Source: Pedobacter namyangjuensis (GTDB taxonomy: Bacteria > Bacteroidota > Bacteroidia > Sphingobacteriales > Sphingobacteriaceae). Taken from it: 64,000 nucleotides of DNA. How positions within the stretch are numbered: position 1 is the stretch's first letter; every line of letters starts with the position of its first letter. Positions 3,404-54,679 of the stretch are shown here, in pieces. Under the pieces are notes generated by a model. That model searched no databases, had not been told where the DNA came from, and saw only the letters and a program-made list of their open reading frames with translations. The stretch lies in the NCBI RefSeq assembly GCF_003313325.1, contig NZ_QMHQ01000001.1:372001-436000 (forward strand). The letters are read 5' to 3'. A program made the translations under genes and the position numbers.

Positions 3404-4651
3404 TCAAATTCGGCGTTTTAACTTTAAAAGTTTTACAACTAGCTTATCGTTTCTGGCCAGCTCTATAATTACGGTTTTACTATCATATGATTTGAAAAAT
3501 TTTGAAATATCATCTAATGAATATTGCTCAATTGGTTTGAGGTTTAATGATAGGAGCTCATCATTCTCCAATATTCCCGCCTTAGCCGCAGGCGAGCCAG
3601 GCTCAATTCTTCCAATAAAATATCTATCATTTTCAATATAGGTTTCAATTCCCGACATGTCGTAATCAAACGGTTCTTTATAGTAGTTGTTCGGTTTTAA
3701 GTAAATGTTGTTTTGAAGATAGTCGTACGTTACATTGAAACGCCTCAGAAATTCTGCTCCTAAATTTCCATCTTGCATTTTATATCCTGTTTTAGCTGCC
3801 ACAGATTCGAATGCTGGAAAACCAGATAACATATTTTTAAAATGATATTTTCCGAAGTTGAACATAGCTATTCTACCTATGTGACCATCAATGAGGCCAT
3901 TTAATCCAACACCTAAATTTGCTACTATAGTAGAATCTGGCAAAGGAAATGGTTTTTCATCCAGCGCCTGCATTGAAAGAGCGTGGCTTGCCCCGCAATC
4001 CAATAAAAGCTTCACTGTATGTTTTGCCTTATTATCTAGGATTAGATCGGCCAAAACATAAGGCCTATTATTAATTAATTCAATCGTAAATTTTGCACCT
4101 TTTTTTAGCGGGTTAGTATTTGGGTCTAAAAAAACTAATCGTTTTGTTGAGTAGTTAATTTTAACCACAAAACTATTAAAGAAATAGTAACCTATAATGC
4201 CATGAATTTTAACGCCTAAATAGTTGGAGAGATTAAAAATATCTTTCTTTAAAATTGCTGTAGGAATGTGTTTTATACTAGCATCTTTTATATCAACGTT
4301 GATTTCACTTGAAAGAAATGCCTCAACTTCCTCTCCCTTTCCTAGCCCATAAATCTTCGTATTTCTTAACACTTTAAGACCTAAAGTATCAACCATGGTG
4401 GGTTCAGTAATAATAAGCGGGCCAACACCGGTATCTAGAATAAAGTTGTAAGGACCTTTCCCATTAATTGTTAGTGGTATAATGATAAGGTTTTTAACCA
4501 TCTCAAAATCCATAGCATTTTTTTTCTGCTTACCAGAAAACGAAAAAGATTGAGCTAAACAGTTGCCAAAAACAGCAAATTGAAACAATATTACACCCAC
4601 AAGTAGGGCAATAGTTGTAACTTTTATACTTTGTTGGCCAATTTTCATCAA
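3404..4651 (-). CDS. Bilobed retropepsin-like aspartyl protease with C-terminal PDZ domain
   Basis: A 415-residue protein with an N-terminal hydrophobic segment (about 12-34), likely a signal peptide or anchor. Two clan AA lobes are visible: the first has D73-T-G inside FILDTGVG, the second has D218-C-G inside LLLDCGASH, each followed by hydrophobic strands. A PDZ domain covers roughly 340-410, with the typical GSPAAKAGI and L-x-x-N-D-E-L stretch. Bacterial aspartyl proteases of this type are predicted periplasmic enzymes. The second motif is DCG rather than D[T/S]G, so full catalytic competence is uncertain. Transcribed divergently from the PBP4-type gene, with only 49 bases between start codons. 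Confidence 0.8.
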   Translation of the reverse strand: MMKIGQQSIKVTTIALLVGVILFQFAVFGNCLAQSFSFSGKQKKNAMDFEMVKNLIIIPLTINGKGPYNFILDTGVGPLIITEPTMVDTLGLKVLRNTKIYGLGKGEEVEAFLSSEINVDIKDASIKHIPTAILKKDIFNLSNYLGVKIHGIIGYYFFNSFVVKINYSTKRLVFLDPNTNPLKKGAKFTIELINNRPYVLADLILDNKAKHTVKLLLDCGASHALSMQALDEKPFPLPDSTIVANLGVGLNGLIDGHIGRIAMFNFGKYHFKNMLSGFPAFESVAAKTGYKMQDGNLGAEFLRRFNVTYDYLQNNIYLKPNNYYKEPFDYDMSGIETYIENDRYFIGRIEPGSPAAKAGILENDELLSLNLKPIEQYSLDDISKFFKSYDSKTVIIELARNDKLVVKLLKLKRRI

Positions 4652-47751: not shown

Positions 47752-47785
47752 AAACAGCCACGGTTTTAATCGTGGCTGTTTTTTT
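47752..47785 (-). terminator. Rho-independent terminator of the efflux operon
   Basis: ACAGCCACG (47754-47762) pairs with CGTGGCTGT (47771-47779) over an 8-nt loop; the minus-strand T-run comes from the A-run at 47747-47754. It begins directly after the EmrB-like stop codon. Confidence 0.9.
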
Positions 47786-49331
47786 AGTGGGCATCTACCG
47801 GAATATTTACATTCTTTTTAAACTTTTGCAGGTACAGCAAAGGGATAGAACATAAAAGCACCATACCAGCTACCCAATAGGCGTCGCTGTAAGTAAGCAA
47901 CATGCTTTGTTTTATAATAGAACCTTCGATAGCTTTCATAGCCATAAGTTTGGCATCTAAATAACTAGCGCCTTTAGCCATAAAGTTATGGATAAAGCCA
48001 TTTAGCCTTTCGGTAAATGCGGGGTTATATTCGTTAACGTTAGTTAGAAGATTGTTACGGTGAAAACCTTGGCGAGTGTGAATTAAAGTTGTTAGCGCTG
48101 CGATGCCAAATGAACCGCCCAATTGGCGCATCATATTATTTAAACCAGAACCTTGGCCAATTTCAATGCCTTTTAAATCTTGCATGGCCAACGTTGTTAG
48201 CGGTACAAAAAGTAAAGCCATACCAATTCCTCTAATTACCAGAGGCCAAAAGAAATCGTCTGTGCCGGAGGCTAGGGTAGATTTACTTAGCATAAAACAG
48301 AACACAAAAAACAAAGCCATGCCTCCAGTTGCCATAAATTGTGCTGGTACACCTTTTTTAAGCATGATACCTATAAAAGGCATCATTACAATGGTGCAAA
48401 TACCGCCTGCAATAAAAAGCTCGCCGGTTTGTAGTGGCGTAAAGCCCAGTAAATTTTGTGCAAAAACGGGGAATACGAAAACTGAGCCATATAAACCGAA
48501 ACCTAAGATAAATGAAGTTACCATACCGATGGAAAAACTTCGGTGTCGCATAATTTTGAAGTTTACGATAGGGTGGTCGGTACTTAACTCTCGCCAAATA
48601 AATAAAAGCAATCCGAAAAGCGAGGTTACTCCTAAGGCAACGATGTAAGGGGTAGCAAACCAATCTTCGCTCTCGCCTTTTTCCAGTAGCGTTTGTAAAC
48701 TCCCAATAGAAATGGCAAGCAATAAAATTCCCCACCAATCTACAGGCTTACCTTGCCCGTCTTTTGGGGTTGTTTTTATAAAAGTAATAGTACAGTATGC
48801 GGCTAAAATCCCGACAGGAATGTTTACGTAGAATATCCAAGGCCAATCTGTAATTTCTAAAATATAGCCACCAATTGTTGGTCCCACTGTTGGCCCAACA
48901 ACCGCACCCAAACCAAATAATGCAGTTGCTATACCAACATCTTCTCGTGGCCAAGTTTCTAAAAGGATAGATTGTGCGGTAGAAATTAAACCTCCGCCAG
49001 CTAAACCTTGTAAAATCCTAAATAAGATTAGCTCTTCTAACGAAACAGCATTACCGCACAAAAAAGAAGCGATGGTAAAAATGATAATTGAAGTTAGGAA
49101 ATAGTTCTTTCTTCCAAAACGGCTCCCTAACCAGCCCGACATGGGCAATATAATAACGTTGGCTACAGCGTAACCAGTAGATAACCAGGCTACATCTTCT
49201 AAAGTAGCACCTAAATTACCTTGTATTTGCGGAATGGCAACGTTTACAATCGTGGTATCGATTAGCTCCAGTAATGAAGCCGTGATAACCGTAAACGTGA
49301 TAATCCACTTTTTAAAACCTACTTCGGCCAT
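47784..49331 (-). CDS. DHA2-family efflux MFS permease, EmrB/QacA type
   Basis: A 515-residue, 14-segment inner-membrane drug:proton antiporter. DHA2 marks are visible: the first-helix LLELIDTTIVNVAIPQIQ (aspartate motif), SGWLGSRFGRKNYF (loop motif A) and GPTVGPTIGGYI (motif C of antiporters). Together with the HlyD-type adaptor and TolC-type channel genes upstream it forms a tripartite pump that can expel toxic compounds across both membranes. Last gene of the operon, 10 bases after emrA-like. Confidence 0.92.
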   Translation of the reverse strand: MAEVGFKKWIITFTVITASLLELIDTTIVNVAIPQIQGNLGATLEDVAWLSTGYAVANVIILPMSGWLGSRFGRKNYFLTSIIIFTIASFLCGNAVSLEELILFRILQGLAGGGLISTAQSILLETWPREDVGIATALFGLGAVVGPTVGPTIGGYILEITDWPWIFYVNIPVGILAAYCTITFIKTTPKDGQGKPVDWWGILLLAISIGSLQTLLEKGESEDWFATPYIVALGVTSLFGLLLFIWRELSTDHPIVNFKIMRHRSFSIGMVTSFILGFGLYGSVFVFPVFAQNLLGFTPLQTGELFIAGGICTIVMMPFIGIMLKKGVPAQFMATGGMALFFVFCFMLSKSTLASGTDDFFWPLVIRGIGMALLFVPLTTLAMQDLKGIEIGQGSGLNNMMRQLGGSFGIAALTTLIHTRQGFHRNNLLTNVNEYNPAFTERLNGFIHNFMAKGASYLDAKLMAMKAIEGSIIKQSMLLTYSDAYWVAGMVLLCSIPLLYLQKFKKNVNIPVDAH

Positions 49332-49341
49332 TGTGTTTTTT

Positions 49342-50379
49342 TTAGATAGAAACCGAAACTTTTACACTCATTCCTGGGCGTAATTTTTCTAAAATAGCTT
49401 TCTCTTGATTTTTGATTTTGATTTTAACAGGCACACGTTGTACAACTTTTACAAAATTTCCGGTTGCATTATCAGGAGGCAGTAACGAGCTTTTTGCGCC
49501 AGTAATAGGTGCAAAATTGTAAATCTCACCTTCAATTGCTTCATCAGGGTAAGCATCTACTTCTATGTTCACTTTTAATCCGGGACGAAGTTTTTCTAAC
49601 TGCGTTTCTTTAAAGTTCGCCGTTACATATAAGCTGTTTTCATTTACAATGGCAAATAACGATTGTCCGGCTTGCACCAATTGCCCTTTTTGTACATTCT
49701 TTTTAGAAACAGTTCCAGTTGCAGGTGCCTTGATTGCGGTGTAAGATAGTTGCAGTTTAGCAAAATCAACATCAGACTGACGTTGCGTTACGCCAGAATT
49801 ACTAACTCTCAACTGTGATTCTGTGGTGCCTACCTGTTTTACTGCTGCATTATATTGGTCTACAGCTGCGGTGTAAGAAGCTTGTGCGGTTTCTTTTTGC
49901 GCTTTTGCCTGGTCAAATGCTTGTTGGGTTATAGCACCATCTTTAATCAAGTTCGCAAAGCGATCAAAATCTTTTTGAGCTAAATTTAGCTTAACCCTGG
50001 CTGCTTCTATATTTGCTTTTGCCGTGCTGGTATTTGCTGCAGTTGCTGTAATTTGCGCTTGCGAAACGCCAACGCCTGCGCTAGCGCCAGTTTGCGAAGC
50101 CATTGCCTGCTCTAATTTGATTTTATAGTCGCTATCGTCTAAAGTAACCAAAACCTGATCTTCGTTTACCTTGGTATTTTCTTCAAAATTGATGTCTTTC
50201 ACATAGCCACCCACTCGTGCAACAACCGGGCTTATGTCGCCATCAATCTGCGCATCATCGGTATCTACATGTTTGCTATAATAGTTGTATTTGGTGTAGC
50301 CAAAAATTGAGCCTCCAATAAGCAGTACAATTAATATAATAGGAAGAATTTTATTCTTCTTTTTTGCTTCTGTTGTCAT
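49342..50379 (-). CDS. HlyD/EmrA-family membrane fusion protein
   Basis: A 345-residue periplasmic adaptor. One N-terminal membrane segment (about 10-28) is followed by the lipoyl half-motif HVDTDDAQIDGDISPVVARV, a long coiled-coil hairpin (about 85-195) rich in Ala/Gln, then a beta-barrel region ending LRPGMSVKVSV. It links the EmrB-like permease to the TolC-like channel. Intact. The gap to the upstream TolC gene is 23 bases. Confidence 0.92.
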   Translation of the reverse strand: MTTEAKKKNKILPIILIVLLIGGSIFGYTKYNYYSKHVDTDDAQIDGDISPVVARVGGYVKDINFEENTKVNEDQVLVTLDDSDYKIKLEQAMASQTGASAGVGVSQAQITATAANTSTAKANIEAARVKLNLAQKDFDRFANLIKDGAITQQAFDQAKAQKETAQASYTAAVDQYNAAVKQVGTTESQLRVSNSGVTQRQSDVDFAKLQLSYTAIKAPATGTVSKKNVQKGQLVQAGQSLFAIVNENSLYVTANFKETQLEKLRPGLKVNIEVDAYPDEAIEGEIYNFAPITGAKSSLLPPDNATGNFVKVVQRVPVKIKIKNQEKAILEKLRPGMSVKVSVSI

Positions 50380-50402: not shown

Positions 50403-51719
50403 TTATTGAGTAACTTTTCCGGTAGATTTTAGTAGCGTGTAGTAAGCTAAACTTGCATCAGCTTTTGCTAACTCTAAATTTATTTTTGCTTGATAAAGCA
50501 AAGTTTCTGCATCAATTCTGTCTGTAACAGAGGCAATATTGTTTTTATATTTTGAAGCCAAAAGGCGATCGTTTTCCGTTGCTTGTGCTATTGATGTTTC
50601 TAACACATTAATCTTTTGCACGGCTAAATTGTAGTCTTGATAGTTTTTATTCAACTCTGTTTTTACTCGGTCTGATAAGATGTCCTTTTGCAAGCCTATT
50701 TCATGTTGCTGAATTTTGGCTTCTGCAACTTTGTTTTTATTATTCCATAACGAAGCTACGTTCCAAGAAACAGTTGCGCCGACTGTTATAGGCATAATGT
50801 ATTGTTCTGCACCAGGGAAGAAATTTCCACTTGGATTGATGTAGTATAAGTTTGCCCCTAAACCAACCGTAGGTTTTACGTTAGCTTTAACGCTTTTAAT
50901 ATTATAATCCGCCACTTTTGTTTGCATGTCTAACTGCTGCAATTCTTGTCTGTTTGCCAAGGCAAGATTTAGGTAAGATGATAAAGGCTCAATATTTTTA
51001 ATTGGCAATTCGGTTTCGGCAAGTTCAATGTTTGTATCTTCAGGTAATCCTAAAAGAATATCAAGATTGTAGTTGATGATTTTTCTGTTGTTTTCTATTT
51101 CCAAATCGGTTAGCGAAACATTGGCTTTTTGCAATTGAAATCGCAATACATCATTTTTGGTAACTATTCCCTGGTCGAAAAAACGTTGCGCTTGTTTTAA
51201 CTGGCTTTCTATCGAAGCTATGTTTTGCGCTACAACTTTTTTGCTTTGCATTACTTTGTAAAGTGCGTAATAGGTATTAATTACAGCATAGCTGATTTCT
51301 TCCTTATTTTTATCGGCATCTAACCTGGCCACATCGGTTAATAGCTTAGTGGAAGCTTGTGCATATTTGTATTTACCACCGGCATACAAAACTTCTTGTA
51401 CTGCCGCTGTACCAACAAAGGCATCAGCTCTGCTTGGTAAATGAATGGGGTTTCCACCTCCAATAGATAGCGTGTTAGTTGGAATTTCTGCGTGGTTGTA
51501 TAAAAAGCTGGCAGATGCACTTGGTAGGGCGTTGTCTTTAACTACGGCTAATCGGGCTACTGCTTCGTCTATTTTGCTTTGTGATAGTTTTAAGTTCTTG
51601 CTATTTGCTACTCCTAAATCTATAGCTTCTTGCAAACCTAGCTGTTTAGTAGTTTGTGCACTTAAAATTGCAGGGAGCAATAAAAAGGCAAAGCCGATTT
51701 TTAATTTATTGGTGATCAT
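50403..51719 (-). CDS. TolC family outer-membrane efflux channel
   Basis: A 438-residue protein with a signal peptide (1-21, ending LSAQ). Long amphipathic alpha-helical hairpins (for example about 120-215 and 340-430) and the internal repeat with GLQEAIDLGVANSKNLK and LNLALANRQELQQLD are the TolC/outer-membrane efflux protein pattern. It provides the exit duct for the EmrAB-type pump. Its start overlaps the end of the TetR gene by 14 bases, so translation may be coupled. Confidence 0.92.
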   Translation of the reverse strand: MITNKLKIGFAFLLLPAILSAQTTKQLGLQEAIDLGVANSKNLKLSQSKIDEAVARLAVVKDNALPSASASFLYNHAEIPTNTLSIGGGNPIHLPSRADAFVGTAAVQEVLYAGGKYKYAQASTKLLTDVARLDADKNKEEISYAVINTYYALYKVMQSKKVVAQNIASIESQLKQAQRFFDQGIVTKNDVLRFQLQKANVSLTDLEIENNRKIINYNLDILLGLPEDTNIELAETELPIKNIEPLSSYLNLALANRQELQQLDMQTKVADYNIKSVKANVKPTVGLGANLYYINPSGNFFPGAEQYIMPITVGATVSWNVASLWNNKNKVAEAKIQQHEIGLQKDILSDRVKTELNKNYQDYNLAVQKINVLETSIAQATENDRLLASKYKNNIASVTDRIDAETLLYQAKINLELAKADASLAYYTLLKSTGKVTQ

Positions 51720-52332
51720 TTTTTGGTGCTGTTAAATGCGTTATAATAAGGTCTTGCAGGTGTGTTACTAACCTTTTCCTTAAAACCTCTTTTTGTTTTT
51801 CATCATTAATATCGATGTCGTCTGTAGCTTTAAATGGCGAGTGTGCAACCATGCTAATAGTTCCCATTATGGTTAAAATGCTCAGTCTAACATCAACTTG
51901 TCTAAAAACTCCTTCGGCAATACCTTTTTCGATAATATTCTCAATAACCAATCTATTCTTGGTCATCGCTTCTTTAATTTGATTAAATACCTCCGGACGC
52001 TGAGTTAAGGAAAACTCCCTGTGCATCATTTTATGAAAGCTAACGTTGGATAAAATACGGGTAGCATACCGATCAACTACTTTAAGCAATTTCTCTTTTG
52101 CAGAAATCTTTTCTTCATTAATTAAGTCTAATTGAGATTTAAACCCAGCGATTTTATCTTCCATAATTTGAAGAAAAACACCTTCTTTACTACCGAAATA
52201 ATAATTAATCATAGCCATATTGGCACCAGCTTCTTTTGCTATTTGACGGGTAGAAGTACCTTCGAAGCCTAATTCTGAAAACAGCATCGTCGCAGCATTC
52301 AGTATATCGGTCTTTTTATCAGTTTTTTCCAT
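51706..52332 (-). CDS. TetR/AcrR family regulator of the efflux operon
   Basis: A 208-residue cytosolic repressor. The N-terminal helix-turn-helix (about 10-55) includes LNAATMLFSELGFEGTSTRQIAKEAG and MINYYFGSKEGVF, the TetR hallmark; a large helical ligand-binding domain follows. I start at the ATG at 52332, 18 bases after the -7 box. It is the first gene of the operon and overlaps the TolC gene, so it should repress its own operon through the palindrome at 52352-52377 and be released by a pump substrate. Confidence 0.92.
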   Translation of the reverse strand: MEKTDKKTDILNAATMLFSELGFEGTSTRQIAKEAGANMAMINYYFGSKEGVFLQIMEDKIAGFKSQLDLINEEKISAKEKLLKVVDRYATRILSNVSFHKMMHREFSLTQRPEVFNQIKEAMTKNRLVIENIIEKGIAEGVFRQVDVRLSILTIMGTISMVAHSPFKATDDIDINDEKQKEVLRKRLVTHLQDLIITHLTAPKNDHQ

Positions 52333-52349
52333 AGTTGTTTTTGACGACG

Positions 52350-52380
52350 CAAAATTAATCAATCGATTGATTAATTTCAA
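52350..52380 (-). promoter_or_regulatory. Promoter with embedded 26-bp TetR operator
   Basis: On the minus strand a -33 TTG (52378-52380) and the exact -7 box TAATTTTG (52350-52357) are spaced by 20 bases. A perfect 26-bp palindrome (52352-52377, centre ATCGAT at 52362-52367) fills the spacer and enters the -7 box. Binding of the TetR protein would block RNA polymerase directly. Confidence 0.85.
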
Positions 52381-52474
52381 AACTAATTTGTTTCTGTTTA
52401 CAAAAGGATGATAATAGGATGTTTTAAAAGTGTAGTGTCTAATCGATCAATGTTGTAAAAACAATTTGATTTTA

Positions 52475-54679
52475 CTAGGCCACAGCACTTTCAAAATAGG
52501 GAAGAAAAATTGAAGCGATTGTTCCAGTTTCAGGTTTTGATGTTATTTTAAAGCTGGCAACATTTTCGTTTTTCTGCGCATTAATAACCGCAATGCGTTC
52601 TTTTATGGAGGCCAATCCCATTGATTTTTCCTTAATCCCAAATTTGATATTAGCCTTTGGCTCATTAACTATCCCTGTTCCATTATCTTCTACGGTAATG
52701 TTAATTCCATTATCGTGCTTTTTTAACCTAACCTCTAAATGCGAATCAGGCTTTCTGCTACCTATTAAACCATGCAAGATTGCATTTTCAATTAGGGGCT
52801 GTACCAGCATTGGAGGCAACAAAAGCGTGTTCAACTGCAAATCCTCGTCGGCATAAAAATTAAATGTAAAAGAATCGTTGTAACGCATAGCTTCCAATTC
52901 GGTATAAAGTTTTAGTGCCTTCCATTCTCTGTCGGCGCTAACTAAACTTTTGGTAGAATTTTCGAGTATCAATCGTGTTAAGGAAGCAAACTTTTGTATA
53001 AGCCTAGATGCTGTTCTTTTATCGTTATCCATTACATAACTTTCTATAGAATTAAGTACGTTAAAGATAAAATGAGGATTCATTTGCGACCTAATTGCTT
53101 TTAATTCGCTTTCGGTAAGTTGAAACTGGTGCTTTAACAGAAGCTCATTTTGTAATGCTTCTTGTTTTTGCAAGGTGTTTTTAAATCGCAGTTGCCTAAT
53201 TCTATATAAATTAATTAAATAAACAATAACTGACGCTAAAACAAGAATCGCTAATGCACCATAAAGCCAAAGCTGCTTTAACTCCAGTTTATTTAGTTTT
53301 TGCGCTTGAGAAAGTGCGTTAACCCTGTTAGCTTGTAGTTTTTCTTTGTTTTTAGCAATGATAAGTTGCTTTTCTTTTTCTTGATTTATCAGCTTTTCAT
53401 TCTCTAACGAAATTCTTTGCAAATCTCTAAGTTGAATTGTTTTTTGTAGTTCGGCGTTGTTTAAAGCAAGTTGTAACGACTGTTGCTTCAGCTGCGCATC
53501 GGCTAGTGATTGTTTTTGTTGATAGGAGAGTTCTTTTTTGTCAAAATCATATTGTATACCCATTCTGGTAATCTCAGTTTTCTTTTTATCACTTCCTATG
53601 CTATCTGCAAATTTGTAAAACGCCTTATGGTAAAAGAGCGCACTGTCTGGCATTTTTACTGCCTCATAAACTTCGCTTAAACCTAAACTAGCGTCTCTCG
53701 TTATTTCTGTAATGTTCAGTTCTTTTCCAATGTTATATGCCATTAGCCCGTATATTTTAGATTGTTTGTAATCTTCCTTTTTATAATAGGCTGATGACAC
53801 GTTTACATAATTGTAAGCGAGACTTCTTTTGTTTTTTAACTTTTTATTTATCTCTGTAGCTTTTAAACCGTATGTTAATGCCAAATCTGGTTGCATTTGA
53901 TGGGAATAGTAACCTGATAAATTACCGCTTTCTCGGGCAATCGCTCCCAAGTCTGCAATTGAATCTGCTAATTTTAGAGATAGCTTACTATATTTAATGG
54001 CTTCATTTAAGTCTTTCTTTTTATAAAAGATCGAAGCCATATTAGTTAGCGTATTAACTTGGTTGATATAATTTTTGTGCTTTTTGTGTATCACGTAAGA
54101 CTTTTGATAGTTCTCCATAGCTTGGCTAAGATTGCCCATTTCGTTGTATATCGTACCAATGTTTGAATTAGTGGCGGCTATATCAAGTTCATCTTTTTTA
54201 GCATCGAATTTAGTTAAGGCTGCTAAATAACACCTTAAAGCCTCGGGAAATTTAGATTGCGCCATATAGACTAAGCCCATCGTTGATAAATCTTTTCCAA
54301 TTCCAGAGTTATCTTTTAGTGCGTTATCTATTTTTAACGCATTATTTAATGATTCTAATGCTTCAGGAAATTTTGAAGTAAAATATTGCAATATTGCTTT
54401 AACCCTGTACGTATTTGCAACCAGCTTTTTCTTTGCAATTTTATCCTGAAATGAAATGATTTCGTCGATGTGATCAAAGGACTTGTTTATATCAATCCTC
54501 ATCTTTGAAACGGCTAAATCATATAAAATGGATGCCCTCTTTTCATCTTTATTCGAATGCTGGTTTAGCAAATTGTTAAGCGAATCGATTTGCCTATTTT
54601 GTGCAAACGTACAGTTCGTTACTAAGGTGGCAAACAATATAATTGTGGTTATTACTATTGTTTTAAGCGTTATTCTCAT
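52475..54679 (-). CDS. TPR-containing LytS/YehU-type sensor histidine kinase
   Basis: A 734-residue membrane kinase. A signal/anchor (1-27) is followed by about seven tetratricopeptide repeats in the periplasm (85-350), a coiled coil (380-468), one membrane segment (470-491), then a LytS-type histidine kinase domain with the phospho-acceptor H536 in MNPHFIFN, and an ATP-binding domain (QPLIENAILHGL, DNGTGI, GLASIKERI). No LytTR response regulator lies next to it, so it is orphan here. Its partner and signal are unknown. Confidence 0.9.
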   Translation of the reverse strand: MRITLKTIVITTIILFATLVTNCTFAQNRQIDSLNNLLNQHSNKDEKRASILYDLAVSKMRIDINKSFDHIDEIISFQDKIAKKKLVANTYRVKAILQYFTSKFPEALESLNNALKIDNALKDNSGIGKDLSTMGLVYMAQSKFPEALRCYLAALTKFDAKKDELDIAATNSNIGTIYNEMGNLSQAMENYQKSYVIHKKHKNYINQVNTLTNMASIFYKKKDLNEAIKYSKLSLKLADSIADLGAIARESGNLSGYYSHQMQPDLALTYGLKATEINKKLKNKRSLAYNYVNVSSAYYKKEDYKQSKIYGLMAYNIGKELNITEITRDASLGLSEVYEAVKMPDSALFYHKAFYKFADSIGSDKKKTEITRMGIQYDFDKKELSYQQKQSLADAQLKQQSLQLALNNAELQKTIQLRDLQRISLENEKLINQEKEKQLIIAKNKEKLQANRVNALSQAQKLNKLELKQLWLYGALAILVLASVIVYLINLYRIRQLRFKNTLQKQEALQNELLLKHQFQLTESELKAIRSQMNPHFIFNVLNSIESYVMDNDKRTASRLIQKFASLTRLILENSTKSLVSADREWKALKLYTELEAMRYNDSFTFNFYADEDLQLNTLLLPPMLVQPLIENAILHGLIGSRKPDSHLEVRLKKHDNGINITVEDNGTGIVNEPKANIKFGIKEKSMGLASIKERIAVINAQKNENVASFKITSKPETGTIASIFLPYFESAVA

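Follow-up and report, generated by a model that had tools for sequence, protein, structure and literature searches.

A conserved palindrome on the -7 box of a TetR-efflux operon in Pedobacter, probable operator of the adjacent repressor

The tetR-efflux locus and its promoter

The window (the whole 64-kb stretch of DNA that was analysed) contains four genes in the order tetR-OEP-HlyD-EmrB, all on one strand, and a perfect palindrome lies at the start of this series. The features are as follows, with the promoter consensus and the transcription start rule taken from excerpts of the cited papers.

47784..49331, minus strand: EmrB-like DHA2 MFS efflux pump (TIGR00711, 423.1 bits; cut-off 230.2)
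49342..50379, minus strand: HlyD/EmrA-like periplasmic adaptor (PF13437 and PF16576, above cut-off)
50403..51719, minus strand: TolC-type outer-membrane efflux protein (PF02321, 149.4 bits; cut-off 22)
51706..52332, minus strand: TetR-family regulator, 208 aa (PF00440, 55.1 bits, cut-off 24; PF17932, 38.4 bits, cut-off 26.4)
52344..52345, minus strand: predicted transcription start (4-5 nt rule of PMC6847099)
52350..52357, minus strand: -7 promoter box TAATTTTG (TAnnTTTG consensus from PMC6847099 and PMC9723704)
52352..52377, no strand: perfect 26-bp palindrome AAATTAATCAATCGATTGATTAATTT, proposed TetR operator (sequence inspection, chance tests)
52356..52373, no strand: conserved operator core TAATCAATCGATTGATTA (55/55 orthologues)
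52378..52381, minus strand: possible -33 box TTTG, 20 nt from the -7 box
52398..52412, minus strand: second conserved element ATCATCCTTTTGTAA, RTCA-N7-GTMA, 11-bp period (54/55 orthologues)

The first protein carries a TetR_N helix-turn-helix at residues 10-55 (PF00440) and a C-terminal ligand-type domain (PF17932, TetR_C_24), both above cut-off, which place it in the TetR family, as does, judged by sequence, the proposed palindromic operator at its own promoter. Its best named relatives by sequence are Bacillus RefZ (NCBIfam NF037937; 89.1 bits, cut-off 180) and FadR (NF053878; 66.7 bits, cut-off 200; PDB 3whb, E 3.5e-13). Because both scores fall below the curated cut-offs, the window TetR is not the same protein as either, and the operator and targets of the Bacillus regulators are unlike its own. 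The frame of the adjacent outer-membrane efflux protein overlaps the end of tetR on the same strand; it scores 80.3 bits with the TIGR01844 TolC model, below that model's cut-off of 225. The adaptor follows after a gap of 23 nt and the pump after 10 nt. For the adaptor, the best model is the EmrA model TIGR00998, and since its score of 249.4 bits is under the cut-off of 390.8, we call the protein only EmrA-like. The DHA2 (EmrB) MFS permease and the linked TolC-type channel characterize an EmrAB-TolC-type pump. The same four-gene order and orientation recur in 52 of 54 other orthologous loci, and in the remaining two the fetched stretch (L039) or the contig (L092) ends first. Upstream of the operon in the window, and co-oriented with it, lies a gene for a 734-aa protein with TPR and His_kinase (PF06580) domains (52475-54679). 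In several relatives the upstream gene is divergent and GH9-like by eye, with a Pfam check made in L190 only.

The original prediction described a mismatch-free 26-bp palindrome centred on ATCGAT at 52352-52377, and this is what we find: arms AAATTAATCAATC and GATTGATTAATTT of 13 + 13 nt, 100% complementary, with no loop. Its promoter geometry also holds. The minus-strand TTG at 52378-52380 and TAATTTTG at 52350-52357 are 20 nt apart as claimed, the palindrome covers all 20 of these plus six of the eight bases of the -7 box, and 17 nt separate the box from the tetR ATG (52330-52332), whose first base is thus the 18th, again as claimed. The palindrome is the longest perfect one in the window by 12 bp, with runners-up at 14 bp. 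Palindromes of at least 26 bp are expected 0.002 times per 64 kb and 0.15 times per 4.33-Mb genome, and none of 40 first-order Markov replicas reached that length (largest 24). The 26-mer has one match in the window at up to 3 mismatches, against a mean of 0.00 in 100 shuffles. Its central 20-mer occurs exactly once in the 4.33-Mb genome; at 3 mismatches it finds one further place, a level which the reversed control also reaches (2/2).

The -7 box fits the Bacteroidota sigma-A consensus TAnnTTTG, which 54/55 orthologues carry at this register. As for a -33 box, 33/55 orthologues have a TTG that lies 17-23 nt from the -7 box (TTG background 14%) and 22/55 lack one, and TTTG is found in the -33 region in the window and in 30/55 orthologues. 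This pattern agrees with promoters of Flavobacterium johnsoniae, for which an excerpt of the source describes TAHHTTTG as strong and the -33 motif as “much less evident” (PMC6847099). The same excerpt puts the transcription start 4-5 nt past the -7 box, which predicts a start at 52345 or 52344 here; by that rule, the position suggested earlier, 52343, would be close.

Conservation of the core within the genus

Of 60 genus genomes, counting that of the window, 55 have a TetR orthologue (~55% identity or more). The core CAANCGNTTGATTA lies upstream of tetR in 55/55, with the variant CGATCGATTGATTA in L047 and L084, and is placed identically relative to the -7 box in all of them, despite TetR identities down to ~55%. 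The core was sought by pattern in these 55 loci; any locus without the pattern would have been shown, and none appeared. Shared ancestry means that the 55 orthologues are not 55 independent cases. Counted from the centre, positions +3 to +9, -6, -5, -3, -1, and +1 are invariant in 55/55, and the half-site that overlaps the -7 box is the more constrained half. Position 2 on either side of the centre is variable (A/T, with G once on the left). Symmetry is already lost at the second pair, through a change of one central W base, in 29/55, which counts against an operator, as does the reading TAATTTTA in L048.

The conserved unit is shorter than the palindrome of the window. It spans ~18-20 bp, and a perfect length of at least 26 bp is reached in 9/55 loci; the exact filling of the spacer by 26 bp, one of the original claims, describes the window strain and a minority of its relatives. 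The named relatives are almost all Pedobacter. An independent retrieval of loci with organism names, largely from the same species as the 55, gave the core and -7 box in 52 of 53 loci. The exception, L095, keeps the core and has lost the standard -7 box, which also counts against the operator reading. In a wider set of 145 genus genomes, 115 contain the exact pattern TAATCAAWCGWTTGATTA and none its reversed control.

The palindrome as an operator

We think it very probable, judging from these sequence comparisons, that the palindrome serves the neighbouring TetR repressor as its operator, through which this protein shuts the promoter of its own tetR-pump operon. A TetR dimer (or dimers) bound to the 18-20 bp core, which takes in bases one to six of the -7 box, would block sigma-A RNA polymerase. 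The tetR gene and the three genes that follow it on the same strand (outer-membrane protein, adaptor, and DHA2 pump), presumably co-transcribed, would then stay off until a ligand, perhaps a substrate of the pump, released the repressor and turned the operon on. The self-repressing promoter proposed originally is favoured by a core locked to the -7 box at 55/55 tetR-efflux loci and tracking tetR; the word “complete” in that proposal is doubtful, for reasons that the second element supplies below.

Such an arrangement is ordinary in kind and strongly conserved among relatives. The autoregulated efflux operons of the TetR family (TtgR, AcrR, QacR) pair a local repressor with a palindromic operator overlapping the promoter, and differ from the window in promoter type and operator sequence, the window promoter being TAnnTTTG. 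To our knowledge, few operators have been defined in Bacteroidota; the site would offer a precise, testable one for an efflux repressor in a genus-wide family. Since the -7 box and the operator share bases, mutations could be used to tell their two constraints apart. Among described Bacteroidota cases, the closest that we found is BmeR5-bmeABC5 of Bacteroides fragilis, where, according to an excerpt of a review, a TetR-family regulator is likewise proposed to bind beside the gene that encodes it and to keep a three-part efflux operon repressed (PMC4790292). The pump there is of the RND type, and the excerpt locates binding in the bmeR5-bmeC5 intergenic region rather than at a palindrome on the -7 box (PMC4790292). 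No paper on the operator of the window appeared among those listed by our literature searches, and none of the papers searched contained its literal 16-mer.

It is improbable, in our judgment, that the palindrome is instead the site of another regulator, standing before tetR through shared ancestry only. Two observations lend themselves to that idea, namely the additional core that some genomes carry in front of usp and a second conserved element, which implies that another factor probably acts at this promoter. The site count argues the other way, with one site in the window genome and one or two in most other genomes. So do the five genus genomes that lack a tetR orthologue. Four of them (G033, G039, G040, G045) contain no exact site of the literal core pattern. 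The fifth, G026, has one only at a remnant locus (L190, site 4001-4018), where the operator sits beside a 40-residue piece of tetR, the pump genes do not adjoin, and the -7 box is no longer TAnnTTTG. This site is flanked by a GH9/deacetylase gene and by one which we take, from its sequence, to be carboxylase-like. The locus is apparently the deletion scar of the whole operon.

Homologues from outside the genus also speak against another regulator, as they bear TetR-type palindromes at the same place with the sequence changed. The same register is kept in 23 of 30 by a shifted sequence, mostly AAACGTTTGTTTA-like; a half-site ACNNNTGWT stands immediately before a TA(2-3)TTTG box in 23/30, and an AAACG-type core occurs somewhere in the 130 nt upstream in 28/30. 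A tandem second half-operator is found upstream in 20/30, by a pattern drawn up after viewing. Counting against the operator among such homologues, the palindrome lies off the -7 box in L157, L161, and L063, and none is recognisable in L060. Among the six class-level homologues (L058-L063), L060, L061, and L063 are outside the count of 30; L060 is a paralogue in a genus genome, and L061 has the site in the same register. Residue 37 of the TetR recognition helix is Ala in 55/55 genus proteins and Val or Met in 30/30 others, and the operator differs between the two groups as well. This covariation may represent one evolutionary event, and we do not use it as proof. In Chitinophagaceae-type homologues (L146-L172), there are often two tandem palindromes at a spacing of ~17 bp, the second of which lies on the -7 box.

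The second conserved element, RTCA-N7-GTMA, is found on the upstream side of the palindrome in 54/55 orthologues, and in 27/28 once similar upstream sequences are removed. Its spacer is always 7 where 6-8 was allowed. The chance level is 2.9% per sequence, a figure that is not a blind test because the element was spotted by eye before it was counted. Its distance to the palindrome takes two main values, ~8 bp apart. The element is present in 52/53 of the named loci and in 0/30 non-genus homologues. A genome-wide search for further regulon members with the window-like form returned 7 matches where the reversed control had 14, and so no excess. We regard it, from its sequence pattern, as a putative site of an activator or second regulator; it may resemble the direct repeats of OmpR/PhoB-type proteins. 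With this element conserved upstream, it is doubtful that palindrome and promoter alone form a complete self-repressing unit.

A role as terminator or attenuator hairpin for the kinase gene upstream is very improbable. The palindrome does come after that gene, which runs in the same direction as the operon, and its arms could pair without mismatch, but its stem is A+T-rich, without a loop or T run, the terminator scan returned 0, and the predicted transcription start is downstream of it. In addition, the site follows tetR and not the upstream gene, being kept where that neighbour is different: divergent in many loci, and co-oriented and unrelated-looking in several. Least tenable of all is a coding role in a longer tetR frame, which is indeed open for 224 aa from TTG 52380, as the DNA is symmetric and contains the -7 box, and each of the three reading phases is represented among the box-to-ATG spacings (20, 19, and 16 of 55 orthologues), so the site is not coding.

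The regulon and a second copy before usp

A search for the palindrome at other loci, suggested originally as a way to reveal the regulon, gave a small one. With a single exact site in the window genome, the regulon there looks, by sequence, like the tetR-efflux operon alone; in relatives, it appears to be one operon plus a stress-protein gene in one subclade. Two exact sites are present in 30 genus genomes. We examined the second site in 29 of these (all but G157, whose site is at a contig end) and in G010, where the tetR site is variant. In 30/30, it lies upstream of a gene for a tandem universal stress protein (Usp) of ~276 aa.

L173-L181, L183-L189, L191, L196, L197, L215, L217, L219, L220, L222, L225-L229, and L231: usp-copy loci, with the site upstream of usp

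An orthologue of this usp gene (at least 82% identity) occurs in 9 of 36 genus genomes searched, with the site in 9/9. The site is absent at five distant Usp proteins (identity 37% or less), and the window genome has no usp match at the 82% threshold.

At 17 of the 30 loci, all in a Pedobacter subclade and outside the window, a perfect 48-bp palindrome is centred on the core; in L225 and L231, the palindromes are imperfect, at 28 and 30 bp. The 17 perfect palindromes have ten different arm sequences, each fully symmetric, and the close relatives L173, L175, and L222 bear different perfect arms. The covariation score of the arms is 0.194, against 0.071 ± 0.013 for shuffles (0/500 as high) and 0.011-0.052 when slid. 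This test is biased towards symmetry because its alignment holds 24 of 28 loci (17 distinct), and the four omitted (L178, L183, L184, L188) are all imperfect. Further pair types, 14 against 12.7, are not unusual (150/500 shuffles). Mapped onto a tree built from 28 usp genes, the split into perfect and imperfect palindromes takes 6 changes, of which starred branches force at least 4. An RNA hairpin was considered for the usp palindrome and is made less likely by the scarcity of G-U pairs, with 4 such cells across 24 pairs in 21 distinct sequences (all 28 loci). The covariation test, the tree, and the G-U count all exclude L225 and L231.

These patterns suggest that the usp arms change in concert, via template switching or selection for symmetric DNA. 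Homogenisation of palindromes by template switching is a process known elsewhere (PMC8794818, PMC7202029). It could explain the symmetric, species-specific arms at the usp copy, as distinct from the window's own site. We tentatively propose, as a possibility rather than an expectation, that the operator acted as a seed for palindrome growth: the subclade copy would place usp under the efflux repressor, its 48-bp arms would evolve in concert by template-switch homogenisation or cruciform selection, and the 26-bp perfection in the window would perhaps be a milder trace. The usp palindrome is the one surprising lead, and it lies outside the window. As a natural example of a repressor site extended to a long, perfect palindrome whose arms appear to change in concert, it would open the template-switch evolution of regulatory DNA to direct tests. 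At one of these loci, L228, the usp frame is disturbed by 20 stops.
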